Shown here: positions 14,583 to 44,800 of the stretch, piece by piece
How the letters are laid out: each line of letters starts with the position of its first letter
Numbering within the stretch: the first letter of the stretch is position 1
NCBI RefSeq assembly: GCF_002775205.1
Contig: NC_036447.1
Span: 22,364,501-22,428,500, forward strand
Reading direction: 5' to 3'
DNA from: Xiphophorus maculatus
Taxonomy: Eukaryota > Chordata > Actinopteri > Cyprinodontiformes > Poeciliidae
Length of the DNA: 64,000 nt
Made by a program: the position numbers and the translations under genes
The notes under the pieces: model-generated
What the model was told of the DNA's origin: nothing
The model's input: the letters and a program-made list of their open reading frames with translations, nothing else
Databases searched by the model: none

Positions 14583-16798
14583 ATGAGGGGCCGTTTAGGA
14601 CAAAATTTACGTTTTGTCTCTCACACACTACCAAAAACTCTCGCATACTCCAAAAAAGTAGCCACGCACACTCCAAAAATTTACGTTTTGTCTCTCACAC
14701 ACTACCAAAAAGTCTCGCATACTCCAAAAAAGTAGCCTCGCACACTCCAAAAAATTACGTTTTGTCTCTCACACACTACCAAAAACTCACGCATACTCAA
14801 AAAAATAGCCTCGCATACTCAAAAAAATTACGTTTTGTCTCTCACACACTACCAAAAACTCTCGCATACTCAAAAAAATTACATTTTGTCTCTCACACAC
14901 TACCAAAAACTCACGCATACTCAAAAAAATAGCCTCGCACACTCCAAAAAATTACGTTTTGTCTCTCACACACTACCAAAAACTCGCGCATACTCAAAAA
15001 AATAGCCTCGCATACTCAAAAAAATTACGTTTTGTCCCTCACACACTACCAAAAACTCACGCATACTCAAAAAAATAGCCACGCACACTCAAAAATTACT
15101 CACGCACATTCAAAAAATACTCAAATTGCGTATACACACACTACTAAAATGTCACACACACACACACAAACGTTAACTTTCTCGCTCACATACACTACTA
15201 TCAGCTCGCTCACATACACTACTACCAGCTCGCGCACATACACACAAACGTTAACTTTCTCGCTCACATACAGACGTTTATCTCTCACATACACAAGACT
15301 AAAGTTGAACACACACACAGTACTAAGACTCGTTTTATGAATGTGTGAGAGCGAAACTCTTTTTGAATGTGTGAGAGTTGTCACGGAAGAGGCGGGGCAT
15401 AATTTTTGGATCAGACTGCGCATGCGTAGATCCTAAACTATAAGTTTCGATTGTTGACTCACTGTATGTTCTATTACTTAGTATATTTGTGCTTTTAAAT
15501 ATATATAGAACGTTTAACTTTCTTGTAGATTAAATGTGCTATAGAAATAAATGAATCTGATTGATTGATTAAAAATAGCAAAATTGCTGTAGTACAATCT
15601 GTCCACTGGGTGCCAGTATTACAGGAATTATTAACCGGCGCCAACTAGTGCCGAAGAAGAAAGAATTTGCTATACCGAACATGGCTAACTCTAATACGAA
15701 ACGAGAGAGAATTGGTCAGGCAGCTGCCATTTTAAACACCATTCTATCTTCTCCGGAGGCAACCAGCACTTTGACAGGCGCATTAAACGATTCAACGACT
15801 GCCCGCAGTGCTACAGTAGATTCAGAACTCTCATCTCTGTTCCGTTCCGGAGCGGTGTTTAAAATGGCAGCTGCCTGACCAATTCTCTCTCGTTTCGAAT
15901 TAGAGTTAGCCATGTTCGGTATAGCAAACTCTTTCTTCTTCGGCACTAGTTGGCGCCGGTTAATAATTCCTGTAATACTGGCACCCAGTGGACAGATTGT
16001 ACTACAGCAATTTTGCTATTTTTAATCAATCAATCAGATTCATTTATTTCTATAGCACATTTAATCTACAAGAAAGTTAAACGTTCTATATATATTTAAA
16101 AGCACTAATATACTAAGTAATAGAACATACAGTGAGTCAACAATCGAAACTTATAGTTTAGGATCTACGCATGCGCAGTTTGATCCAAAAATTATGTCCC
16201 GCCTCTTCCGTGACAACTCTCACACATTCAAAAAAAGTCTCGCTCTCACACATTCAAAAAGAGTCTGGCTCTCACACATTCATAAAACGTGTCGCTCTCA
16301 CACATACATAAAACGAGTCTTAGTACTGTGTGTGTGTTCAACTTTAGTCTTGTGTATGTGAGAGATAAAGTCTGTATGTGAGCGAGAAAGTTAACGTTTG
16401 TGTGTATGTGCGCGAGCTGGTAGTAGTGTATGTGAGCGAGAAGTGTGACATTTTAGTAGTGTGTGTATACGCAATTTGAGTATTTTTTGAATGTGCGTGA
16501 GTAATTTTTGAGTGTGCGTGGCTATTTTTTTGAGTATGCGTGAGTTTTTGGTAGTGTGTGAGAGACAAAATGTAATTTTTTTGAGTATGCGAGAGTTTTT
16601 GGTAGTGTGTGAGAGACAAAACGTAATTTTTTGGAGTGTGCGTGGCTATTTTTTTGGAGTATGCGAGACTTTTTGGTAGTGTGTGAGAGACAAAACGTAA
16701 TTTTTTGGAATGTGCGTGGCTATTTTTTTGGAGTATGCGAGACTTTTTGGTAGTGTGTGAGAGACAAAACGTAAATTTTGTCCTAAACGGCCCCTCAT
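14583..16798. mobile_element. Foldback transposon, 2.2 kb near-perfect inverted repeat
   Basis: The left arm (14583-15740) and right arm (15855-16798) are reverse complements around a 114-base spacer. The outer ends read ATGAGGGGCCGTTTAGGAC and its complement. They are flanked by TCTTTTCT (14575-14582) and ACTTTTCT (16799-16806), an 8-base duplication with one mismatch, as hAT elements make. The outer part of each arm is an array of direct repeats built on TCTCACACACTACCAAAAAC and GCATACTC units; the inner part is unique sequence. The arms differ by about 214 bases, mostly in repeat copy number. No transposase is present. Open frames here translate the repeats, or read the same inner-arm sequence on both strands (MANSN...KRERIGQAAAILNT). 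It is non-autonomous. Confidence 0.85.
15741..15854. other. Unpaired spacer at the centre of the foldback element
   Basis: 114 bases of unique sequence between the arms and the only non-palindromic part of the element. No motif recognised. Confidence 0.8.
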
Positions 16799-18190: not shown

Positions 18191-19793
18191 ATGTTAGACG
18201 GGAAGGCTTGGAACCGAGCTTGCTTCCACCTTTTGGTGTTTGCATTATGTGGAGTCATGGCTCACTGCCAGTCTCAAAGCAAAGGTGGGATTAAAATGAC
18301 ACACTGTGTTTAACCTGAACAGAATGAAGCACCAATCATTTTTACAACACAAATAAGTTAGGTTGTATTAACACTGGGAAATCCATTTTTCCACTTGTTT
18401 GGTCTGGACCCAAAGCAGACTTTAATGAACAGTCCTTTGTCAACAAACCCACACAGGTGACAATCATTGATCCTGGGGCAGGACAGAGAATCCATACGAC
18501 AAATCTTTGCTTAAATGTTGCGGAGGTCAAGACTGTTCAACAGAAATCCATATAATAATTTTTGATGTATGAAAGCATTTGCAACTTCATCAAAGGAATG
18601 CGAAATTTCTGTTTTTTGTGAAGTGACACAATGATTTAAAGATTGAACAAGCAGTTTTGAGCATTTCAACTCTGTTCTGAGACACGGTCACTGAAAAAAC
18701 TATAATGCCTCAAAGGAAAGGCATCAACATAACAAACAGCAAAGATCGTTGACACCAAACACTTTTATGTGACTTTATGTGATTCACTTTGTGTATTGAT
18801 GTACACTAGTCTTCCAAAAAATATATGAAGATGTTTTGTTCATATTCATTGGTAAAACAAAGTATCTTGTAACATTAACAACTGGAGAATTTTCTGAATC
18901 TTTTCTCAGGCTTTTCAAAGCAGCAGACTCTCTTTTTGGTTGGAAAAACTGGCTCTGGAAAGAGTGCATCAGGAAACACCATCTTGGGCCGCTCTGTGTT
19001 TAGAGAAGACGCCTCGGCTGAGTCGGTGACAAAAACCTGTGAGAGACGAGAGCGACTGGAAGGAGACAGGAACATCGTGGTGATCGACTCCCCGGGAATA
19101 TTTGACACAGATAAAACACAAGTACAACTCAAAGAAGACATTGAGCAGTGTGTTAAGCTGTCAGTTCCTGGACCTCATGCTTTTCTGTTAGTGATCAACT
19201 TAAAGTCGAGATTCACAAAAGAGGAAAAGGACACTGTGAAGTGGATCCAGGATAACTTTGGCTCTGCTGCTGCTACTTACACCATAGTCCTGTTCACTCA
19301 TACCGACTTGTTGAGAGGTAAGTCTGTTGAGGACTATGTGGCAGAAAGCAAACAACTACAAACTCTAATACAGCAGTGTGGAGGAAGATACCACTCGTTA
19401 ATCAATGGGCAGAGTTCAGACAGAAAACAGGTAACAGAACTTCTGGATAAAATAGATGAAATGGTTCAAATAAATGGGGGAGACCATTACACCAACAGTA
19501 TGTACAAAGACGCCCAGAGGAAACTGGAGGAGGAAGAGGTAAGAGCATGGTGGGAGGAAGAAGAGAGAAAAAGACAGTCAGAGAGGGAAAGGTGTAAAAA
19601 TGAATATGAAAGAGAGAGACAGAAGGATAGAGAGAAGAGGGAGAGAGATGAAAAGTTCAGTTTTTGGTGTAAACTATTAAGTCTTACTGCCAAGGGTTTG
19701 ATGATGACAAACTATTTCTACCTTGTGAAAATAGGAGGTGCTGTTGGTTTCTTCGTTGCTGACTGTGAACTCATAGGCTCTGTATTTTCTTAA
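18191..19793 (+). CDS. GIMAP/AIG1-type GTPase A with a hydrophobic leader exon
   Basis: Exons 18191-18284 and 18910-19793 join in phase 1 (AAAG/GTGGGA to CTCAG/GC), giving 325 residues. The AIG1 G domain has G1 GKTGSGKS (43-50), [10 protein letters not shown] as G3, the family box [20 protein letters not shown] as G4, and [18 protein letters not shown] at its end. A highly charged coiled coil (about 235-285) and a hydrophobic C-terminus follow. GIMAPs are immune-cell GTPases that dimerise on membranes and affect lymphocyte survival. The first exon encodes two basic residues then a hydrophobic stretch ([12 protein letters not shown]), resembling a signal peptide. The frame also stays open upstream of the ATG to a CAG acceptor at 18173, so a further coding exon is possible. 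Poly(A) signal near 20515. The G domain call is firm and the leader exon less so. Confidence 0.82.
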
Positions 19794-23300: not shown

Positions 23301-25974
23301 ATGGCTGAAGGTACGAGAATAAACCTCATATTCTGTTTGAGTCACCGTTATGGAGCTTTTGACCAGTATCAGAGGGTGGTGTTACACTGGGAGAAAGAAA
23401 GCTCAAGTGGATTACAGAAAGAAATGTGTTGCTTCATTACAATGGTTGCTTAACTAACGATTTATTTGTTTTTATCTCTACGGCCATTTTTCCTAGAAAT
23501 ACAACTCAGAGAGAAGAAGCCGAGAAGTTTGCCTCGGTCTGATGGGTGTGGTCTCTATAACTTTGACGGTATGCTCCCTCAAACTTTACTTTCTGAGAAA
23601 TCTTGTTAAATCCTAGTAATTACACATATATGGATTAAAGTCCAATTTTTAAGTGTTTCTTATGATTGCTAATGCACTTTTTCAGCTTTGACCTGTTGTG
23701 TTTCTACTGACATGTTGTGAGAAATTCCTTTTTTCTGATGTTTGCTCTCCAGTAATACACAAAAATAAGTGTTTACTGCTGTAATTCGATAGATTTTACA
23801 TGAAGCAGCTGAGATTTGGTGTTTTCATATAAATTGAAATGACTTTTTCTTTGAGTATAGATAATGAACAAAAATGTATGAATGTCTTTTTTTTTAATTT
23901 ATCAGAAATGTTCTTGTACTTTTTGCTTCTACACTTAAGTCAAGGAATATAAATCTAAAACAGTCATTTGGATACATTTCTAGTTGTAATATTTTAAAAT
24001 GACATAAAAATTAAATTAAGCTTAAGTTAAAAACACATATGTTGAAAAAATAATTTAAAGTAGGTAATATGCAATTCAGAAAAATTAAAAACAATATTTC
24101 TGCATGGATTATTTGTTTATGTCTTATATATTTTGTATTGTGCCAGTGTTGTCTTCCACAATTGACAACAAGCAGCAGCAGTTTTACCAACAACTGTAAA
24201 CAAAGCCTTAAGCTTTGTTTTAAACTTGTACTCAATTATGACAGTATAAAAAATGAGCAATTGAAAATTAGTAGGATGAGCCATTAAAAAGCAAACATAT
24301 AAGAAGGATTTCACTTTTGAAAACTTAATCCAGTAGTAGAAACTATGCACATACATTTGGTGCCTAACTTTACTAACAGAAACTAAAATAATTTAATGAA
24401 ATAAAAATAATTTGAGTAAAACTTGCAACTCAAGTCAAAGTCTACTTCATGTGTGTCCCTTTGTCATTTCCCGTTTCCTGCAACCGGTGATGTCAAAAGG
24501 TCAGGGAGCTTTGAGGATACAAAATAACAACCAAGAACAAAGGCGTTTGAAGACGTGAAACAAAAACACTCAAAAGATAGAAATTAACGTTAAAACTATG
24601 AAAACAGTCAGAGAAAATTTTAAGAACAATAAAATCTGACCTTCTCCAACAAATACATTGGTCCAAGTCCATTAACTTTCAAATGTTAGAAGCATCATTT
24701 TAATATCTGTCCTTACTACTTCTATTGGAGGCCAGTTTACCAAAATCCAAATGCTCTATGTGTCAGGCTGGCATTAGGTCTGTGTTATGTTTGCTTTCTT
24801 GTGCTTTGTGTCCTTGCTTTGGCTGGCATGTGTCAATTTGCTTTCAGCGTGAAAACGTGCATCAATATATAATTGTGCAGCCTTGTAAGAAATCCAGTGT
24901 TCAGCTCCTTAGCTTCTGCTATTGGCAAAAAAAAGAGTTTACTCTATTGATGTTCTACTGAAATAGCACAAAACTACCATCCTCACTTCAGCCATTTGAC
25001 ATGCTTTTTGTGTGAAGTATTAACGTTGCTTTTAATCCACAGCTTTGGATTTGTCTGGAGGGTTAAGGATCGTCCTGGTTGGAAAGACTGGATCAGGGAA
25101 GAGTGCCACGGGAAACACTATCCTCGGCAGAGCTGTCTTCAAAGAAGATCCGAGCCCGGTGTCGGTGACCAAGCACTGTGAGACACAGAGCGGAGAGGTG
25201 GACGGGATCGCAGTCCAAGTAATCGACACTCCGGGCCTGTTTGACACAGGAATCACAGAGGAGGAACTGAAGTCCAGGATAGAAGAGTGTGTCAAGATGT
25301 CGGTTCCTGGACCTCACGCTTTCCTTCTGGTGATCAGGCTTGGAGTCAGGTTCACCGAGGAGGAGAGGAATGCCGTGAAGTGGATCCAGGAAAACTTCGG
25401 CGACGACGCCTCCATGTACACCATCATGCTGTTTACGTGCAAGGATCAAGGCAAAGCAGACAATGCCCTGAAGGAGTGCAAGGAGCTCCGGAGACTTTCG
25501 ATCACGTTCGGGCGCAGGTACCACGCCTTCAACAACAACGACGCAGACGACCGCGTGCAGGTCACAGAGCTCATCAACATGATCAAGGAAATGGTACAAG
25601 ACAACGGAGGGAAGCACTACACAAACGAGATGTATGAGAAAGCCCAGAGGAAGCTAAGAGAGGAGGAGGAGCGCAAGAGGCAGGAAGAGGAGGAGAAGAA
25701 GGAGGAAGAGAGGAAGGTTTGGGACGAGGAGAGGGAGAAGCAGCAAAAAGAACGAGAGAAGAAGAAACAGGTTCGGAGGAAGAACATCCGCGTGGCCTCG
25801 GCTGCTGCGGTTGTGTTGGTGTTAGCCGGCGTTGTCATAGCGGTGGGGGCAAACACCACCGTGGCGCTGGCTCTGGGGGCTCCGACGCTCGTCCTGGGGG
25901 TTTTATGTGGTTTAGCTGCCATTTGGGTTTGGAAAGGAATAAAATGTAAAGCTAAAAAAAACAGTCCGGTGTAA
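23301..25974 (+). CDS. GIMAP/AIG1-type GTPase B, C-terminally membrane-anchored
   Basis: Three exons, 23301-23310, 23497-23568 and 25043-25974, join in phase to 337 residues starting MAEEIQLREKKPRSLPRSDG. The AIG1 domain has G1 GKTGSGKS (41-48), VIDTPGLFDTG as G3, [20 protein letters not shown] as the conserved box, FTCKDQG near G4, and KHYTNEMYEKAQRKLREEEE. A Glu/Lys/Arg coiled coil (about 230-277) precedes two hydrophobic segments (VVLVLAGVVIAVGA and VLGVLCGLAAIWVW) and a basic tail, which suggests a C-terminal membrane anchor as in several GIMAPs. Poly(A) signal at 26012. The last exon is GC-rich compared with its flanks. It runs in the same direction as GIMAP A and converges with GIMAP C. 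Confidence 0.9.
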
Positions 25975-27935: not shown

Positions 27936-28899
27936 TTATTTATTGCCTGTTCCAGATCTGATTAACCATCCAACACCTTTCACGATCGCTGCACCTCCAA
28001 GAGCCAACATTTGTGGTATAGATGAAGCTGCGACTTCCTCTGCCACTATAGCACCACCGATAGCAGGCGCAGCTGCGCTTGCCGCTGCGCCTGCTGCTGC
28101 ACACAGTAAATAATTTCCTGCAGTCCCCACAGAGGACCTGGCCTGGTGCCACCATAGTTTATTCTGGGCCTGTTTGTAAATCTCGCTGGTGTAATGACCT
28201 CCGTTCAACTGGACCGTACTGTCTATTTTCTCGAACAGATCAGCCACCTGAGTGCGATTTCCTTTGCACGTGTTGTCAAACACAACATATCCAGCTTTAC
28301 ACTCACTGGTCAGCTTCCTCATCTCAGGGCTTTTGTGCAAATAGTTCTCGATTGTGTCTTTGAGCTGATCCCCCCCGGTGAAAACAACGATTGTGTACTT
28401 CGAGACTTCCTCGCCGAAGTTGTCCGTGATCCAGTTGATGGCATTTTTCTCCTCCATTGTGAAGCGTGCAGAGAGACTGATGACTAGCAGGAATATATGT
28501 GGTCCAGGGAGAGACAGCATGATGCAGTTCTCTATTTCACTCTTCAGTTTTTTCTCTGTTGTATTCGATGTGTCAAACACACCAGGAGTGTCAATGATAG
28601 TCACTGTTCGCTCATCCAGATGGATGGTTTCTTTTTGGCATACTTTAGTCACGGAGGAAGGAGACATCTCTGCAATGAAGGCGTCCCTTTTCAGGATGGT
28701 GTTCCCTGTTGCACTTTTACCAGATCCGGTTTTTCCCAGGAGGACGATTCTCAGGTCTTTGACGGGACAAAACAAAATGTGTTGAGACATGAAAAGTCAA
28801 CGTCTGACTTAGAGTGAGGTCACGATATTTTTTACTGAGCATGAATAAGCCACCTGTTTAAAAGAAGAAATACCAACCTTTAGCTGAGGTTGAATTCAT
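27936..28899 (-). CDS. GIMAP/AIG1-type GTPase C, small-residue hydrophobic tail
   Basis: Preferred model: exon 1 28899-28878 (MNSTSAK) and exon 2 28756-27936, joined in phase 1, giving 280 residues beginning MNSTSAKDLRIVLLGKTG. A single-exon alternative starts at 28790 (MSQHILFCPVK) in the same frame. The AIG1 domain has G1 GKTGSGKS (15-22), IIDTPGVFDTS as G3, LSLPGPHIFLLVISLSARFT as the conserved box, FTGGDQ as G4, and GHYTSEIYKQAQNKL. Unlike A and B it lacks the charged coiled coil. It ends in an Ala/Gly-rich hydrophobic stretch (LLCAAAGAAASAAAPAIGG, then EEVAASSIPQMLALGGAAI), probably membrane-inserting. IRF/ISRE-like sites lie 130-190 bases upstream of the ATG. Confidence 0.88.
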
Positions 28900-31606: not shown

Positions 31607-31789
31607 CCATAAAGTGTGCTTTCTAAAAGACTATTTCTTCTCCATAGTTGGATAGGTGCTGAAGATCTCACTGATTGACCAAGAATTAAGTGGATAAAGG
31701 CTCCTAATCTAAATAGTTATTAGTTAGAGCTACAGGGTTGGAGTCAAGAGGTTCTTCACTTATTGACGGAGGCGGTTTCCGGATCAACC

Positions 31790-32458
31790 ATGGCATCAAC
31801 CGGTCTCCAGGTGCTGGGTTTGGTGCTGGCCCTACTAGGTTGGGTATGTGGGGCTTTGGTGTGTGCAGCTCCGCTGTGGCGCATATCAGCCTTCGTGGGG
31901 GGAGAGCTAGTGATTGCCCAGGTGTTGTGGGAGGGTTTGTGGATGAACTGCCTGTCTCAGACCACCGGCCACATCCAGTGCAAGGCCTATGACTCCACCT
32001 TGGCCCTCCCTACGTCAGCCCAGGCAGCTCGAGCGCTGACGGTTCTTTCCCTGCTTCTCAGCGTTCTGGCGGTCATGCTCGGTGTTGCTGGGGCCAAGTG
32101 TACCCACTGCATGGGCGACAGCAACCAGGCCTCCAAAGCCCGGCTGGCCAGGATAGCAGGGGTGCTCCTCATCGTGGCTGGTCTCAGCTACTTGACGCCC
32201 ATCTGTTGGACTGCCTATGGCACGATTAGAGACTTTTATGATCCAAATGTTGCAGCGCCTTTAAAGAGAGAACTGGGGCCTGCGTTGTACCTGGGCTGGG
32301 GGGCCAGTGTGCTCCTCCTGCTGGGGGGAGCTCTGCTTCACGTCGGCTCCTCTGCGCCTGGAGGAAGAGCGCTGCCCGTATCTGGAGCCAGAGCAAAGCC
32401 CAGCCCATCCATGGGGGCAGCAGGAGAAGTGAAGCAGCAGGAAAAGTCATTTGTATGA
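31790..32458 (+). CDS. Claudin (claudin-3/4/5-like) tight-junction protein
   Basis: Single coding exon, 222 residues, ATG in a good context (AACCATGG). It has four membrane segments (about 8-28, 82-102, 118-138 and 160-183). The first extracellular loop carries the claudin signature W30, GLW 49-51, C54 and C64. Other family features are QAARALTV at the second membrane segment, the FYDP motif of the second loop, and a C-terminal PDZ-type ligand ending KSFV. Claudins form the paracellular seal or pore between epithelial cells. The tail is rich in Ala, Gly, Ser and Pro and lacks the usual YV ending, having FV instead. Subtype cannot be fixed by eye, since fish have many lineage-specific claudins. 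Candidate poly(A) signals at about 33346 and 33461. Confidence 0.9.
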   Translation: MASTGLQVLGLVLALLGWVCGALVCAAPLWRISAFVGGELVIAQVLWEGLWMNCLSQTTGHIQCKAYDSTLALPTSAQAARALTVLSLLLSVLAVMLGVAGAKCTHCMGDSNQASKARLARIAGVLLIVAGLSYLTPICWTAYGTIRDFYDPNVAAPLKRELGPALYLGWGASVLLLLGGALLHVGSSAPGGRALPVSGARAKPSPSMGAAGEVKQQEKSFV

Positions 32459-34399: not shown

Positions 34400-34772
34400 C
34401 AGACATTAACGATCTGTCAATGAGTCAAATCTAGAGCGTTATATTCAGGACGCTTATTCTTTTTAAAAGAATAAGTTTAGTTAAAATTATATTCTATCTA
34501 AACTTTACACAAGACTGGATAACTTTATTGTGAGATTTAGCTTCTTTTTTAAATTATTGTTGTTCATCCATTTGCTCTACTACACAGTAAAAAATGCTGG
34601 GTTATTTTCATAACCCAACTTCTGGGTAAGAGATGCTGGGTCATATGTTGGGTTACTTTGACCCAATATTGGTTCAAAAGTAGTGACCCAGCGGTTGGGT
34701 TGACTTTTTTTTTGTTTTAATGAACTCCACTTAACTGATTCTGTTAGGTTTCAGGTTCAGTTGACTCAACAC

Positions 34773-34823
34773 TTTACCCAATTGGTTGGGTCAAATACAG
34801 TTTGACCCAACCAATTGGGTAAA
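34773..34823. repeat. Perfect 23-base hairpin in the left subterminal region
   Basis: Arms at 34773-34795 and 34801-34823, each containing ACCCAATTGGTTGGGTCA or its complement, around a TACAG loop. Built from the same ACCCAA motifs as the rest of the element end. Confidence 0.9.
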
Positions 34824-35099
34824 AATCCATTGCCCTCTTCACAAACCTCCATTTTCAACTGGACTGCGACCTGATCAGACAACACTGGATTTCTCAATTC
34901 AAATAAAACATGGTAAGTTACAATATCATGGCATAATACTTTTAAAGTTTATAGGGTTATTGTATTCTTCATATACTACAGATTTTTTAAATTAAATTTA
35001 TGTAACTTTAATTTAATTATTTGATTTAACCTATCATCTTCGTTGATAGGGTAATGTTTTTGAAATAATTCATTTAATTCAAAGATAATTTATCCAATT

Positions 35100-35299
35100 T
35101 GGTTTAAAAAAAAAGGTGAGGGTGTGGGAGGGAGAGATAGCGCTTTGCGCCCCCCCCCCTGGTTTTCGCGGGCCTCGTTCACTAGCGCGCGCAAAGGGTG
35201 GTAGCTTAGCCAGAATGCTAATAACGGATCTATAGCGACAAGTAGGGACTGGAGGCTTTGCAGTAGCGGTGTCCGAAGCGACCAGTACAAGCTATACAG
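35100..35299 (+). promoter_or_regulatory. GC-rich promoter and non-coding first exon of the SAM gene
   Basis: A sharp GC/CpG-rich island (GCGCTTTGCGCC, CGCGGGCC, AGCGCGCGCAAAGG) in otherwise AT-rich DNA. It ends at a donor, CTATACAG/GTATTC, at 35299/35300. An acceptor at 36131 would place the SAM-gene ATG ten bases into exon 2. No TATA box. Confidence 0.5.
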
Positions 35300-36140
35300 G
35301 TATTCATAGTAATATATCAGTAATATAACTGTTAAATGCCATTTTCATTAAGCCTTTTATTTCTTACTGAACACACTATGCTATGCTATTATACGGCTAA
35401 CCTGGGTGAAACCGATTGAGGCAGTGGAGTAGAAAAAAAAAGTATGCACCAGCAATGGCAGAGGAGGGGAAGCTAAAGTTGGATAATATGCTTTCTGTCA
35501 AATAAAAGTAACTTTTACAGATTTCTAGTGAAGATTTAACTATGTAACAATAAAATATCTGCTCGATTTATTGAAATATCTCTTAATTTAAAAGTGCTCC
35601 GACATGTTTGGAGTCGTCCCCACCGGTGTTCTGTCAGATCAGCAACTCTGCGATGGCATATGCTTAACACAAACTGACGGCTATATGTATCTGTCATTAC
35701 CATATGATTTTATGTAAGCAGCAACATCATCATGACGCAGAAATTAGATAATGCGCACGTATGTTATTCTGGCCATTATTAACCACCAAGGTGGAATTAA
35801 AAACATACAGTTATTAGTGAAAACAGCTGGATTAACTTTTGGGTTTACACAGATCTGCTTCATGTTGCCAGGTATCAGGTTGCGCTGAGGGGAGAGCTGG
35901 TGAAAACAAGACTGAACAGTGTGATCTCTCCTGGTGTCCCAAAAAGTGATGTTTTACATTTGTTCAGGGTTATTAGCTGCTAAACATATAGTCAATGTCC
36001 TATTATTTTTTCTTATTTGCTGTGAAATATTTGGTGATTGTCCTAAATAAAATATTTTTGCACACATTGTACAGGTTATTTTCCACATAGGAAAAAAATG
36101 ACTCAAATTGTATCACTTTTTTCCCTGAAAGATCTGAAAG

Positions 36141-39100
36141 ATGGATGAGTTTGTAAAACAGAAGCTGACTGAATGGAAACTTTCTGACCTAATCCCTGCT
36201 TTTGAAGGTAGGTTAAGTATATACATGTGTGTGTGTGCGTGTGTGTGTGTGTGTGTACTTAAAAGCATGCATTGGCAGGAATTCTTTGGATTGAAAATAT
36301 TAATATGTAATTTCTAATATATTTCAGCTGAAAACATTGATGAAGAAAGCTTCTTTCTTTTGGATGCTAACTGCCTGACATCCCTGATTCCTCACCTTGG
36401 TCCTCGTCTGAAATTTCAACGTCATTTTGCAAAATTTCTTGAGGTATGCTTTGAGTCATAGGACAAGACAAAATGGGATATGTGTGTTTTAAATGTGGGA
36501 TGTCTTTAGGACATAACATAAGGAATTTTTTTTCTCACCTAAGAGTAATTCATAACACATATTCAACTTCAAGATATGTCCAGTGTGCTCAAAGTGAGCA
36601 CACTGGACATCTAGCCCTAAAACAACTGAAGATGCTGATCCTACACCACATGCTGAATTAGAGAGTGGAGTTTCTTCTGTTGGAAGAGCAGCATTTGTAA
36701 CTTAAGCTGCACAATCAACCTTTCCTACATAACATATTGACATCCATTCTTACTAATTAAAATTAAAAATGACACATCTCATCTTTTCTTAAATTTCTAA
36801 GAATATTAAACTGCAGCTAAATAACAGCTATTTTATTTTTCACTATTTATCTGTAGAACATCCGTGAGATCCTCAGTGCCTCCCCTGAAGGTAGACCTGT
36901 GGTTATCAGTCTTGATGGAAATCAGCATATATCCATTTGTGAAAGACGGTGCATGGTCAGAACACTTGTGTCACACCTGATGGATCAATATGGAGAAAAG
37001 TGAGTATTTCTTGTAAAAACTGGATCAATTAGATTGTTTTTGTGACATTTTGCTCTTGGTGAGAACATTAACGGCATTGTGCAGTGCTCACCTAAGTAAA
37101 ATTTCTCCAGTAAGAAGTCTTAAAGTATGTGTTGGGCTAATAAAAACTGGATTTTTTGGAAATTGTTTGTGTTTTAAGGTTTCTGCTCTATGTTTTCATC
37201 TTACAATAACTAATTAAAATAAAATATTTTACTTGCCTGTCTTACTGAGTGTAATTTTTTTTGTTTCCAGCCCATCTTCAGACACTAAAGCAATTCTGGC
37301 ATCTTCGATTGTGGACCAGTTTCCATGTTTAAGAGACAGCCATGGCACAGGATATGTAAGTTTTCACACTTCAGAGAACTAGCACACAAGTACTTCAACA
37401 ACTTGCACAATGGTTAGCATTAAATATCATTGTAACTATGGTGTTTGAGCTTTGAGTTGTAGGTTTAATAAAAATTTGGACATTAAAACAGAAAGGCTAA
37501 CATTTAACTTTTATATTTCTTTTGTTAAAAATGTTCAGGACGCCTGGTTTACCCGCGGAAGACAACACAGGCCAGCAACTGGCTTTCTGGAGGAGCGTCT
37601 CCGTAATGTAAGGAAAAGGCATCAACCAAGGAAGAAGATGCTTTCAGCCCCAGAAGCTCCACCAAAAAGATCAAGTTTGCCTGGTACTAGCACATAGACT
37701 TTTTCCAAGCCCTATTGTTTTGAGCAGCAATCTAAGCTATTATTGCTGTGAATTACCTCACATTTTTTTTCTTTTAATCCCTGTAATATTTTTTTCCCCA
37801 CAGAACCAACCATGAGTGCTGAGCGTGCCATCCAGATGACAGAATGGCTAAAAAATAACTTCTGGCCCGCAGACCAGGTTGTCCAATACATGCGGGAAAC
37901 TGCAGTATATCGCGCAGGATGGATCCGCTCAAGTGGGACAATCCCAATGCAGCAGATTTTTGCAGAGTTCCCACGTTTGTTGGACACACCAGGGATGGTG
38001 AGGTTATACCTCATATTGAGATCAGTTAAATGTTAAACAATAAACTGCAATACCATGTGAAAATGTACAATTACAATCAAACTCAAAATGTCAAACTACC
38101 CAGAACATACATTTGTAGCACCCATGAAAGGTTGAATGTAATAGTTCATTTCATATTTACATTTGATTTGTATTTTTGTCTTTTCTGATTGTTAGATTTT
38201 GCAGGACTTTGCCGTTTTATATCCACAGTCTTGTGGAAAACTGACAGAGAACTGGAACACCTTGTTCTCATCAAAGGTCATTCGCATGGGGAAGAAGGAG
38301 GAGAGCGGTCTTCTGCCTGAGATTGAGTTGCTTCCACAAGGTATTGAAGCTCAAAAGGAACATTTTCTGAACTAATTTTTTTCTCCTGTGGCTCTTTTTT
38401 GATTGTGTAGCATTTTAATCTGAGTTTTTCTTTGACAGACAAACAAGGTGACGTGGCACTGCAGCTGCTGCCAAAACTCCTCCATGCTGTTCCCTACAGA
38501 GTTGGGCGAAAGGTGGTCAGACCCAGCAACCTTGAAGTCCAGCAAGCCTTCATTGATGTCCAGCCAGTAAGTTCATGTCAGAATGAGTTCTTTGCTGTTT
38601 AAATGTAGTTGAAACCAGAAGTTTAAAACAAATATGCTTTTTTTCCCTCACTGTTCTCTCTGTCATTAATCTGGAATTTACCAAGTCCTAATTGACGTGA
38701 AATAAGAATTTTAATGTCATATAACACGAGACAGCGTTGACCAAAAATATGTCTTTTTATATAGTATATGTAAACGTCAAATGCAAGGGTCTTTTGATAA
38801 TGTATCAAACAAAAATCATATAAGAATTAGTCAAAAATTATTAGTGGAGAATGTTCCTCCTTACCTTTAAATGACTAATGGCTTCCTTTCTGCTTTTTCC
38901 ACACACCAGATTGGGACAAATATGGTGGAATATCTTGGAAGTACAGCAACAGAGCATCCACGTGTTCTCATGCTTGAGGACAGGTATTGTTGTTCCCAAG
39001 CATTTGTCGTCATAAATGGAACTGCTTTGGAATATCCATCTCTTTTGGGGGCCGTTGACGGCTGTTTCAAATCATTCTTCGTTTTTGATGTGAGTTATCC

Positions 39101-39215
39101 GAAGTCGTGTATCCAGATTTGGGATTTTCTCCAAACTGTGATATATGAAATCCCAGGAAACGAGTCACCCCCGATAAAATTAATGAGGGCACAGTTGGAG
39201 GCCATGGAAGAATAA
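36141..39215 (+). CDS. SAM-domain protein, 442 aa, intact nine-exon gene inside the TIR element
   Basis: Exons 36141-36207, 36328-36443, 36857-36999, 37271-37355, 37539-37683, 37804-37997, 38196-38340, 38439-38566 and 38910-39215. Every junction is GT-AG and in phase, with no stop or frameshift. Residues 1-61 look like a sterile alpha motif domain (VKQKLTEWKLSDLI, NIDEESFFLLD, LIPHLGPRLKF). A basic, nuclear-localisation-like patch follows at about 159-170 (RNVRKRHQPRKK). The middle has WLKNNFWPADQVVQYMRET and ELLPQDKQGDVALQLLPKLL. The C-terminus has QAFVVINGTALEYPSLLGAV and CFKSFFVFDV. The overall form resembles proteins labelled SAMD3-like in fish, as I recall them. SAM domains mediate protein-protein or RNA binding; the role of this protein is unknown. 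No catalytic motif seen. Poly(A) signal at 39342. Confidence 0.78.
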
Positions 39216-39779
39216 ATGCAATTCTTCAATAACCCTTAAATAAGTTTTAAATGTTCTGATTGAAAAACCTTCTTTGTTACTATGTTACTATTTTATTTTA
39301 CATTTCCTTCAAACTGATGAAAATATTTTGTTGTGTACACCAATAAAGTAAAAAAGGGTGCAGATTTAATCAATTGTTTATATGTAACTTTTACATGTCT
39401 GTATTAAAAATTTTATGTATGTTGGAATGTATAACATTTGCAAATAAAAGTTATTTTGAGCTAATCTGAATGTTTTTAGTTAAATTTTTATAGTGAATTT
39501 TAAAGTAGAAAAGGAAAAAAAAAATTAAAAATAAAAATATGGTGGTAAAATGACCCTTTTAATGGGTAATAAATTTCAACCCAATATTGAGTCATTTTAA
39601 CTTTGGGCAGTGGTCAATTTAACCCAAGCTTTAGGTTGCAGCTATGACCCAATGTGCTGGGTCAAACCCTCAACCCAACCCAGTTGAGTTAAAACAACCC
39701 AGCGTTGGGTCGGTCCATATATGACCCAGCGCTGGGTTACGTATTGGGTTATTTTCAACCCAGCAGTTTTTACTGTGTA

Positions 39780-41469: not shown

Positions 41470-41867
41470 TTTCTGCATTGTCACACTACGTTGCTGACCT
41501 TCAGCGTTCAGCCTCCCCACCGAGCGGGTAGGCAGCTCCTCCGTCCGCACTGACAATTGGCTGGGCTCCTCTCTCTCTCTCTCTCTCCCTCAGTGTCACA
41601 GCTGCTTCCTGCCGCGCCGCGACATCGTAGCTCCAACGAGCTCTCGCGTGCACGCTGCTCTCGCGACGTGAAAGTCCCGGCTCCCCTTTATCGCTATGTT
41701 TGAAGATTAACGAGGCGGTCCCGTGGGTTACACTCGCTTGTTGTAGCCGCTGGAAGCTCCAGGTCTGAGCAGAGCCACGCACTTGCAGGCGGACGGAGGG
41801 CCGTGGCGAGCCGGGCGGAGGGAACCCAGCGCTGTGGAAGGAGGTCGGGAGAGGAGCCGGCGTTGTC
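41470..41867 (+). promoter_or_regulatory. CpG-rich promoter and 5' UTR of slc25a10
   Basis: GC- and CpG-rich block directly upstream of the ATG, with a CT microsatellite at about 41569-41589 and no TATA box, as expected for a housekeeping mitochondrial carrier. The CpG density continues through exon 1. Confidence 0.6.
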
Positions 41868-44800
41868 ATGACTGAGAAACGGATGTCGCGGTGGTATTTC
41901 GGGGGGCTGGCCTCCTGCGGAGCCGCATGCTGCACCCATCCTCTGGATCTCGTCAAGGTGAGGGGCGCAGTAGTTCTCCCACGGAGCCGGGGGGTGAAGG
42001 AGAGTGCAGGCCTTAACACCAGGGCACAGCTGGTTCCAGCTGTTCTTGCACAAGTCGGCGTGTTTCACCAAACCTCACGTCTCGAAGGTTTCACACAGTG
42101 CCCTGCTAGACTAAAGAGATTACTGTAAACGTCCTGAGATCTTAAGTTGGCGGAATTTGTCTGTGTTAGGTAGCATGTTCAAAGTTGAATCTAGGTCATA
42201 GGTCAACCCAACGTTTCCCAGACACAGTAGTCCTGTTAATCTATGTCTAAATCTTCTTTAATTTCTCTAGAGACTTTTGCACATGACTCAAATAAAGTTT
42301 GTGGCGCTCAGGAAATCATGTGTTGTGTAATTATACAGGGAGGAAAGGTAAAGACCAGGCTGCAGTTGAAGGGCTCTCTGAGGCCTTTTGTTTGCCCTTA
42401 CTTGTTACTTGCAAGTGGTAAAGCTGGAAAGCAGGGTTTTATACACAAAGCACATGCTTCAGAAATGTAAATGTTCATTATTTTAAGAAAGAAGGAGAGC
42501 ATGAAAACCGTTAGGAACCGTGTAATAGAAAATGTTAGGTTTATTTTTATTTTTGTTTTTAGGCACTAGAGGCCTGTATTTAGCAGTAACTGGACAGGGA
42601 ATGGGGAGGAGAGAGCGCTCTACGACACACTACACTCAGCACGTGAATGTGTGTGTGACTGAATGGAGTGTGAAGTGCTTTTGGGTTCATGTGGACTTGA
42701 TAAAGTTCTCTACAAGTACAGGTCATTTACCAACTGAGCCTCCCATCACTCAACATTTTAGCTGCTTTAAATCCAAAACTTATCAGAAACTTGGTAAAAC
42801 TCCCTTCTAGTCGCTAGATGATGCCTAGTTTGGAGAGTGGACTAAGACGTTACTGCCCCTCCCCTACCTGCTGCTGTGTGCACTGCAGGTCAGCTGGCTG
42901 AGATGATGAAATTTATAACTTGCTGTTTTTGACACTGGATTACCATTAATTGCCTATTTATGAAAAGTCAGTACTGAACAGCTCTTATATCGTTAGGAAT
43001 GTCTTTCTGCAAAGTGTTTTTCATGTTTAACTCTGGGATTAGTGTGAGACAGCTTTAATTCATCTTCCATCAAATGTAAACGTCACTGCTGTGTTCTCAA
43101 GAGTTCAAGTAAAAATCTATGTAATAATCAAAATGTTCACAATCCAGTTTTAAGGCCAGTACAGTGTTTAATTTCAAGGTCAAGACTCTTAAAAGGCTTT
43201 TTATTTCATCTCTGCCATTCAGCCGGCTTTAACGAATAACGAATAACATTTTCTTGTGACAATTATTCTGACAGCTAGTTAGTTTAAAGACATTATTCAG
43301 TGAAAACAGAATCAGGTCCCAGAATAGAGAAAAGTGCACTTTGCGGTAGTGTGCTATTTCCACATTGCTGAAAAGTCCAGTTACGGCAGTGCAAAGACCA
43401 CATAGTCATGTTTGTTTTCATGCCAACATAGAACCCGATTTGGAAAATAAGCAAACACAGGTTTGACCTCATCTGTTTTAGTTTTTAAAGTTACAAAGCG
43501 GTTTGCCAACAGCACAAACACTGACATAAAACATTTATTAAGGATGGGACCAGTTCTGATGCTGTCTTGCTTAAAATTGTAACTTTCTCTTTTTTTTTTA
43601 AAATAAAATGGTTATAAAATAATCAAGTTGATTGATTTATTTAAAACGCTATCTAATTCATTTTCCTCCAAAACTAAATTTCCCTTGAATCTTACCGAAT
43701 TAATCTTTATAGTTGTGACAATAACAGATTTTTCTCTAGTGAGGAAACGGAGAAAGAACTTGACTTTTTTCAGAGATACTTTTTTTTCAGTGGTTTCTTT
43801 AAATCAGATTCTCTTTATATTTCAATTGAAATTAAGTAAAGTTGGTGATCAAGATATTGCTTAGTCATTCTGTACCTTCCTGCTTTTCCTGCTTTTCCTT
43901 GCATGTTTTCAGTCTGGCAAGTGAAGCTTTAACAATCCAGGTGGCTTCAAATTACCTCCATAAAACTCTTTTTCAAAGAAAGACACAAGATGAAGAAATT
44001 GAGTGCAGCACCATGTTAACCAGAATTCGCTTGTATGTTTTGCAACAGAATCCTAATAACTTGCATTTGTGGGCTGAAAAACTAACAACAACTTATTGTT
44101 TCCTCTACTGCAACTCCACAGGGTGATGGATTGCTAATGTGGGTAATAAATTATGACAGAAGTCATATTTGATTTCCGAATTTGATCACTTAACTTTGGT
44201 CCAAAATCTGAAAACATTAGATTTGCAAAATCTCTGTTACCAACGTGGTTCTGTGGCCAATGTGTTTCCTCATTATTTTGTATCTTGAGACACTGTTGCA
44301 ACATGTTGTTCAGTAGATGTAACTAAATCAGCATCCGATTTAGGTTGTGAAGGTAGAGTTGGTGAGGAACTTTGAACTAGACAAGTTGGAGCTTGACTTC
44401 AAACTTAAAATGTCTGACTTGAAAATGTTCAGATACAAAAGAAGTGCTTGACAGAAGCTGCTGCAGTGATTTAAATGTTGAACCGAAACACACAAACCAG
44501 TTTACTGAGATCAGCGATGTGGGGAAAAAGCTCACACTGTTTCAGAAAGGTCATTGACCTTTAATCTGAGGTCGTCATCAAAACAAAGAACAAAGGTCAT
44601 GTTTTGAAACCACTGAGGCCCTCTTCCAACAAGCAGAGATTGTTGCAACACCTTATGAAGAACAACGTGGAAAATAAGAAAACAGCTGAATTAGGATTTC
44701 AGATACCTTTGATCAATCTGTGCATTCCTCCTTTGGGTTCTGCATCTAAGCTCTAAATCGATGTGTGAGGTTTTAAGTTTTTTCAACATATGGCTCTCTC

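Follow-up and report, generated by a model that had tools for sequence, protein, structure and literature searches.

When a transposon-like unit of a vertebrate genome carries an intact multi-exon gene and no recognisable transposase gene, is that gene a passenger or a working part of the element? The question is raised by a 64,000-nucleotide stretch of the genome of the fish Xiphophorus maculatus (contig NC_036447.1, positions 22,364,501 to 22,428,500; hereafter the window), in which a 5,195-bp unit (window 34583-39777), bounded by inverted ends CACAGTAAAAA[A/C]TGCTGGGTT of 21 bp each, contains a gene for a sterile alpha motif (SAM)-like protein. Our main finding is that this element recently moved to at least nine genomic places, and that its gene has been associated with it for a long time. 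The reading we prefer, to which we give slightly less than an even chance, is that of a cut-and-paste DNA transposon with a CACTA/EnSpm-like layout, mobilised in trans, whose long-standing gene encodes an accessory factor.

Ends and subterminal arrays of the element

With the flanking TA counted in, positions 34581-34603 and 39757-39779 form a 23-nt inverted pairing at 96%, and the 21-mer end, searched with up to three mismatches, has two sites only in the window, where 0.01 would be expected by chance. The terminal inverted repeats that a preliminary description of the window had seen as delimiting about 5.2 kb are confirmed. The dense subterminal motifs that it had reported are equally clear: the density of ACCCA/TGGGT is 48 per kb in one terminal 248-bp stretch and 52 per kb in the other, versus 1.1 per kb in the interior of the element (a difference of about 45-49 times), and elsewhere in the window, outside the element, it is 1.3-1.8 per kb. 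The left array also holds a perfect 23-nt inverted repeat (34773-34823).

Recent mobility

Copies were searched in the window's own genome only (704 Mb, 101 contigs). Near-identical ends are present at no fewer than 10 places for the left end (98-100% identity) and at least 11 for the right end, and the region of exons 7-9 recurs at 98-100% identity in at least 10 places. Nine places with a near-identical left end were read beyond the window. Seven hold full-length copies (L021-L025, L027, L029); an eighth, L028, is a near-identical copy with an internal deletion; and the ninth, L026 (C1:21821814-21829514), is a broken copy of the same family (family 1), in which some 1.36 kb of other sequence appears around element position 431, and which, within the stretch read, has no match past element position 2652. 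A further near-identical copy, L047, lacks the left part, and a right end at 100% identity (C2:9972742-9972989) has neither a near-identical left end nor an exon 7-9 match listed nearby.

The seven other full copies are 97.9-99.7% identical to the window copy (blastn). Together with it they make eight full copies on eight contigs, with a pairwise divergence of 0.077-0.91% (from 4 substitutions in 5,166 positions to 47 in 5,153), and their flanks are unrelated, save for one 49-bp repeat match. All nine copies with two ends have CACAG...CTGTG termini, and in all nine the 2-bp flanks match: TA in six cases, and CA, AA and AG in one case each. The TA flanks of the preliminary description are therefore to be read as a 2-bp target duplication that is TA-biased (6/9), but not strictly TA. 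The copy at L025 has inserted into an older and decayed relative from the same family, and its flanks, joined minus one TA, are continuous in L041, L035, L048 and L045. Many loci with the gene between the same ends, and empty sites restoring a single TA, had both been anticipated; the eight full copies and these four empty sites supply them.

The mobility of the element follows from these observations, that is, from dispersed near-identical copies, unrelated flanks, matched 2-bp flanks and single-TA empty sites. If the copies were segmental duplicates, or a dispersed family of ordinary host genes with coincidental ends, the existence of several copies would be accounted for and nothing further; this reading is ruled out by copies that stop exactly at the ends, by their matched 2-bp flanks and unrelated surroundings, and by the empty sites, and we give it practically no weight. 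The duplications also bear on the enzyme responsible. A Tc1/mariner-type or other TA-specific transposase would fit the six TA duplications, but Tc1/mariner requires a TA target, and the three others are matched on both sides, which makes such an enzyme very improbable.

The gene and its predicted protein

The gene lies on the + strand and, with splicing inferred from sequence, comprises nine exons separated by eight introns, all GT-AG; its 1,329 nt encode 442 residues with no internal stop, as the preliminary description had it, and the polyadenylation signal that it placed behind the gene proved to be two AATAAA motifs 3' of the stop. Its identification of a SAM domain holds in part. A Pfam scan of the protein does find a SAM-like match in the N-terminal part, but below the gathering threshold (SAM_1, E 0.071, 13.9 bits against a cut-off of 23). 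DUF4769 is a second sub-threshold match (E 0.031), and the best match among solved structures is the SAM domain of atherin (E 0.037). 'SAM-like' is therefore a fair name for the first 60 residues, and not an established assignment.

Past the SAM-like part, the protein has no above-cut-off match in Pfam, solved structures or NCBIfam (prokaryote families), and close-relative scans of viral contigs and of bacterial and archaeal genomes gave no relative. The structure prediction for exon 9 alone has a predicted local distance difference test score (pLDDT) of 42 and is unusable for judging a fold. As stated earlier on, the product has no recognisable transposase identity: the library scans gave no match to a transposase family. 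We take its C-terminal part to be SAMD3-like. An expression table for carp and goldfish, in an excerpt of PMC6771007, carries genes named 'sterile alpha motif domain-containing protein 3-like'.

Decayed copies and the age of the association

Decayed relatives of the element, found by profile searches, are 67-70% identical to the window copy. One of them, L035, retains both ends and, in decayed form, exons 7 and 8 and the first part of exon 9. L041 and L048 retain the right end as well as the beginning of exon 9. Three more, found via the gene itself, hold parts of exons 7-9 (L044), 8-9 (L045) and 7-8 (L046), with stops or frameshifts. In L035 and L044-L046, identity to the window copy is 71-77% in exon 8 and 64-68% in intron 7. 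Since remnants of exons 7-9 are found in copies that are about 30% diverged, the gene is old in the element. Of the two possibilities put forward for this locus, capture of a host gene is not favoured as a recent event: decayed copies carry the gene, and a second family combines the same terminus with a homologue (see below).

Eighteen distinct places with diverged ends were read (all 11 listed left ends and 9 of the 19 listed right ends, two being shared). Ends that never flank the gene had been named as an outcome that would speak against an element bearing it; in this one genome, the near-identical ends read have the gene, whole or in part, next to them, and of the diverged ends, those at only 3 of 18 places (L035, L041 and L048) adjoin gene remnants. 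The unit at L033, about 365 bp long, possesses the two ends but lacks the gene. Four places with a left end only (L034, L036, L037 and L040, on C23 and C20) share flanks among themselves and have the appearance of segmental duplicates derived from a single old insertion, as do L030 and L032; these six were counted separately among the 18.

Homologous genes at other repeats

A protein search of the genome gave 97 matches and, beyond family 1, seven distant places, five of which were read (C21, C14, C5, C3:31467244 and C4; the remaining two are C22:22146141 and C3:9433959). An end-like terminus adjoins the gene at C21, C3:31467244, C5 and C14, and at C4 the gene adjoins a second open reading frame (ORF). 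A plain stand-alone host parent gene was not identified among the five.

The copies at C21, C3:31467244 and C5 constitute family 2, with a mutual identity of 95.4-97.7% over 1.4-1.5 kb, intron and 3' sequence included. All three terminate at the same point, with TTTTACTGTG and a TA next to it, and the flanks beyond are unlike. Read inward, this terminus is CACAGTAAAA, which is the same as that of family 1 over the outermost 10 bases. The last 100 bp of family 2 contain another motif, AGTAAA/TTTACT, at 40 per kb. A DNA search with family 2 gave 17 matches: the three copies, eight partial ones (82-99% identity; C6, C11, C17 and C22) and six weaker ones (70-73%), C14 and C18 among them. The C-terminal domain of family 2 is 31-32% identical to that of the window protein, and an acceptor-like sequence stands directly 5' of a shared GTN/GTS motif in both families, so that the family 2 gene probably has an intron at a place matching family 1.

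Family 3 (C14) has ATTTACTGTG at 744 bp 3' of the stop, adjoining an array of GTGTTAA/TTAACAC-type motifs. At C4 (L059), the SAM-type domain is 44% identical over 54 aligned residues. About 20 nt after its ORF, on the same strand, starts the second ORF (L059:3-959, - strand, within C4:34787830-34789000), which is at least 319 residues long and still open where the stretch read stops.

Search for a transposase

Allowing two mismatches, the 27-base left end has 13 sites in the genome, ten of which are near-identical family 1 copies. The 21-bp end, with at most one mismatch, has 35 sites (24 exact, 11 with one mismatch). Twenty-one of the exact ends lie in near-identical family 1 copies, and the three others (C7, C13 and C15) are old remnants; the 7 kb read there showed no recognisable transposase. 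Of the one-mismatch ends, four of the 11 were read (in L025, L035, L041 and L043). A transposase-bearing relative with the same ends, which the preliminary description had suggested looking for, was not found in this genome with these 4 of 11 places read, and a partner could still lie among the seven remaining ones. Within the element, the one other ORF of at least 100 residues is antisense and 106 residues long, and a spliced gene made of short exons could escape such a list. In the related loci, whose ORF lists were inspected by eye, no transposase was recognised either.

With no recognisable transposase inside the element, the cutting enzyme has to act in trans, come from a gene that was missed, or be the element's own protein through an activity that went unrecognised. 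If the last were true, the SAM-like protein would be a recombinase of a class without a recognised catalytic domain, and the element would be autonomous. The 106-residue antisense ORF as sole other candidate, and exact ends confined to 21 family 1 ends and three remnants without a recognised transposase, agree with this proposal. We consider it improbable: the protein matches no transposase family, and in the aligned C-terminal domains the only acidic residues found constant by eye are two, an E and a D, which is not a DDE pattern, the comparison being limited to those domains.

An accessory factor or a passenger?

In our preferred reading, of a transposon mobilised in trans, a transposase supplied from elsewhere would make the cuts at CACAG, with the SAM-like protein as an accessory factor retained by selection. 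That protein would most likely assemble on the subterminal arrays, with its N-terminal SAM-like part oligomerising. A model for such a role is given by plant En/Spm, which uses a second, non-catalytic protein. The source may have been a two-gene ancestor, with a SAM-type gene beside a second ORF as at C4; a stretch in the tail of that ORF is reminiscent of EnSpm-type catalytic regions, a likeness that Pfam and PDB searches do not support. A wider proposal, which we advance tentatively, is that of a fish superfamily with CACAGTAAA ends, TA-biased 2-bp duplications, family-specific arrays and a single conserved gene, whose SAM-like product has a C-terminal domain in common across families and is needed for transposition, the catalytic partner being separate or a neighbouring ORF such as that at C4.

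The main rival is that a non-autonomous CACTA-like element long ago captured a host SAMD3-type gene and has carried it since as cargo, families 2 and 3 being further captures. This is possible, and we are somewhat doubtful of it. The lack of a recognised transposase in the element and the host-like exon-intron structure agree with it, neutral evolution is compatible with the young copies, and L033, with both ends and no gene, implies that the gene is not needed in cis; moreover, plant Pack-TYPE elements show that such capture occurs (PMC8903248, as excerpted). It is less at ease with long retention, as seen in remnants within copies about 30% diverged, with a second family that has different subterminal motifs and yet the same outermost 10 bases and a homologous gene, and with the failure to identify a stand-alone host parent in the five of seven distant places read. 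The long association and the second family favour a functional link, in which the protein would be an accessory that binds DNA or a complex, over a passenger, though not decisively.

The coding sequence of the young copies contributes little to this choice. Reading frame and all splice sites are intact in 8/8 full copies, and no indel is found in the 1,329-nt coding sequence, versus 36 gap runs outside it, many of them in homopolymers or in a TG repeat and one of them an alignment artefact. Among 18 variable codons, 12 are nonsynonymous and 6 synonymous, and the pairwise ratio of nonsynonymous to synonymous divergence (dN/dS) of 0.48 lies in the direction that had been predicted (below 1), but is weak, coming from so few codons and without a formal test. 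Mean divergence is 0.51% in coding sequence and 0.78% in introns.

Several points weigh against the preferred reading. An intact frame at less than 1% divergence is little evidence of selection, and the 5' (0.62%) and 3' (0.55%) regions are hardly more diverged than the coding sequence. Exon 7 of L035 (66%) is not better conserved than its intron 7 (68%), and the exon/intron comparison therefore shows no clear coding constraint. Gene remnants are absent from 15 of the 18 diverged places in the stretch read; because old copies commonly lose internal sequence, the figure does not discriminate between the two readings given most weight. Family 2 elements are known from their right ends only and the terminus they have in common with family 1 is short, at 10 bp; the end of family 3 is a single sequence, followed by AA. 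Neither Pfam nor PDB gives a significant match for the second ORF at C4 (the best are sub-threshold, FOXP-CC at E 0.0088 and C2H2 at E 0.091), and a credible element end is absent from the 1,171 bp read at L059. Finally, no transposase was recognised in the element (ORF list, Pfam, NCBIfam) or in the related loci read.

Either outcome would matter. If the gene is a passenger, the locus is a clean vertebrate case of a DNA transposon multiplying an intact multi-exon gene, and the multiplication is so recent that insertions may still differ between individuals. If it is a working part, it is a transposon gene that has gone unnoticed and that annotation pipelines would class among host genes, and the young intact element is suited to testing the function of the protein. 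Should the superfamily proposal be true, many annotated SAMD3-like fish genes would be transposon genes.

Features of the element and its surroundings

The coordinates of the element's features are collected in Table 1.

Table 1. Features of the element in window coordinates
Feature	Position	Strand	Basis
Target duplication, left copy (TA)	34581..34582	.	Matched 2-bp flanks in 9/9 two-ended copies
Left terminal inverted repeat, begins CACAG	34583..34603	+	End pairing and end searches
Left subterminal ACCCA/TGGGT array	34583..34830	.	Motif density
ATG then GTAAGT, possible 5' exon donor	34910..34918	+	Kept in decayed relative L035
GC-rich block, possible promoter	35120..35300	+	Visible in sequence
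Coding exon 1	36141..36207	+	Splice model
Coding exon 2	36328..36443	+	Exons 1-2 encode weak SAM match, residues 5-54
Coding exon 3	36857..36999	+	Splice model
Coding exon 4	37271..37355	+	Splice model
Coding exon 5	37539..37683	+	Splice model
Coding exon 6	37804..37997	+	Splice model
Coding exon 7	38196..38340	+	Remnant in decayed copy L035
Coding exon 8	38439..38566	+	Remnants in decayed copies L035, L044, L045, L046
Coding exon 9; C-terminal domain common to families 2 and 3; ends with stop codon	38910..39215	+	Splice model, protein alignment
AATAAA polyadenylation signals	39342..39347 and 39443-39448	+	Both 3' of stop
Right subterminal ACCCA/TGGGT array	39530..39777	.	Motif density
Right terminal inverted repeat	39757..39777	-	End pairing and end searches
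Target duplication, right copy (TA)	39778..39779	.	Matched 2-bp flanks

On either side of the element, 31724-32458 presumably encodes a claudin and 41769-42128 the start of a mitochondrial dicarboxylate carrier. Farther off in the window are three long ORFs (18879-19793, 25036-25974 and, on the opposite strand, 27936-28796), which we take to be GIMAP-type GTPases, and two opposed tandem arrays of a CTCTCACACACTACCAAAAA-type unit (14602-15123 and 16477-16779), about 1.4 kb apart, which form a large imperfect palindrome. A separate unit of 351 bp lies in the decayed locus L041 (6226-6576); its inverted ends are CACTGCAAAAA, TA flanks it at either end, and it probably represents a further small non-autonomous family of a similar kind.

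Comparison with known systems

A SAM-type gene inside a DNA transposon was not found in the literature, in a search that covered only the top-ranked part of the results for several queries; excerpts of PMC8389408, PMC10706053 and PMC10298005 contain nothing relevant. Among known systems, Tc1/mariner differs from the present element by its strict TA target (CA, AA and AG in 3/9 here). The CACTA/EnSpm (CMC) group is closer. Its 5'-CAC...GTG-3' termini correspond to the CACAG...CTGTG found in 9/9 two-ended copies, its short TA-rich target duplication (2-3 bp) to the 2 bp of the element, and dense subterminal repeat arrays, in both orientations, are a CACTA trait. Unlike that group, the element has no DDE transposase with C2C and H3-4H motifs that we could find. 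With a SAM-like gene and no recognisable CMC transposase, membership of CACTA/EnSpm is therefore not claimed. Termini of the CMC group are mostly CA..TG and its duplications 2-5 bp long, according to an excerpt of PMC12730594.

Plant Pack-TYPE elements, as described in excerpts of PMC8903248 and PMC13317346, resemble the element in being bounded by terminal inverted repeats and a target duplication, in carrying a multi-exon gene of host type and in that a transposase is not found. In contrast to them, the element keeps a whole intact gene in 8/8 full copies, in an old association, and at least one further family combines this terminus with a homologous gene. Fungal transposons bearing TET/JBP genes, EnSpm included, have a transposase, whereas none was found here and the carried protein is without a known enzymatic domain; they are alike, in the excerpt of PMC12730594, in that one family of non-transposase proteins recurs across transposon lineages.

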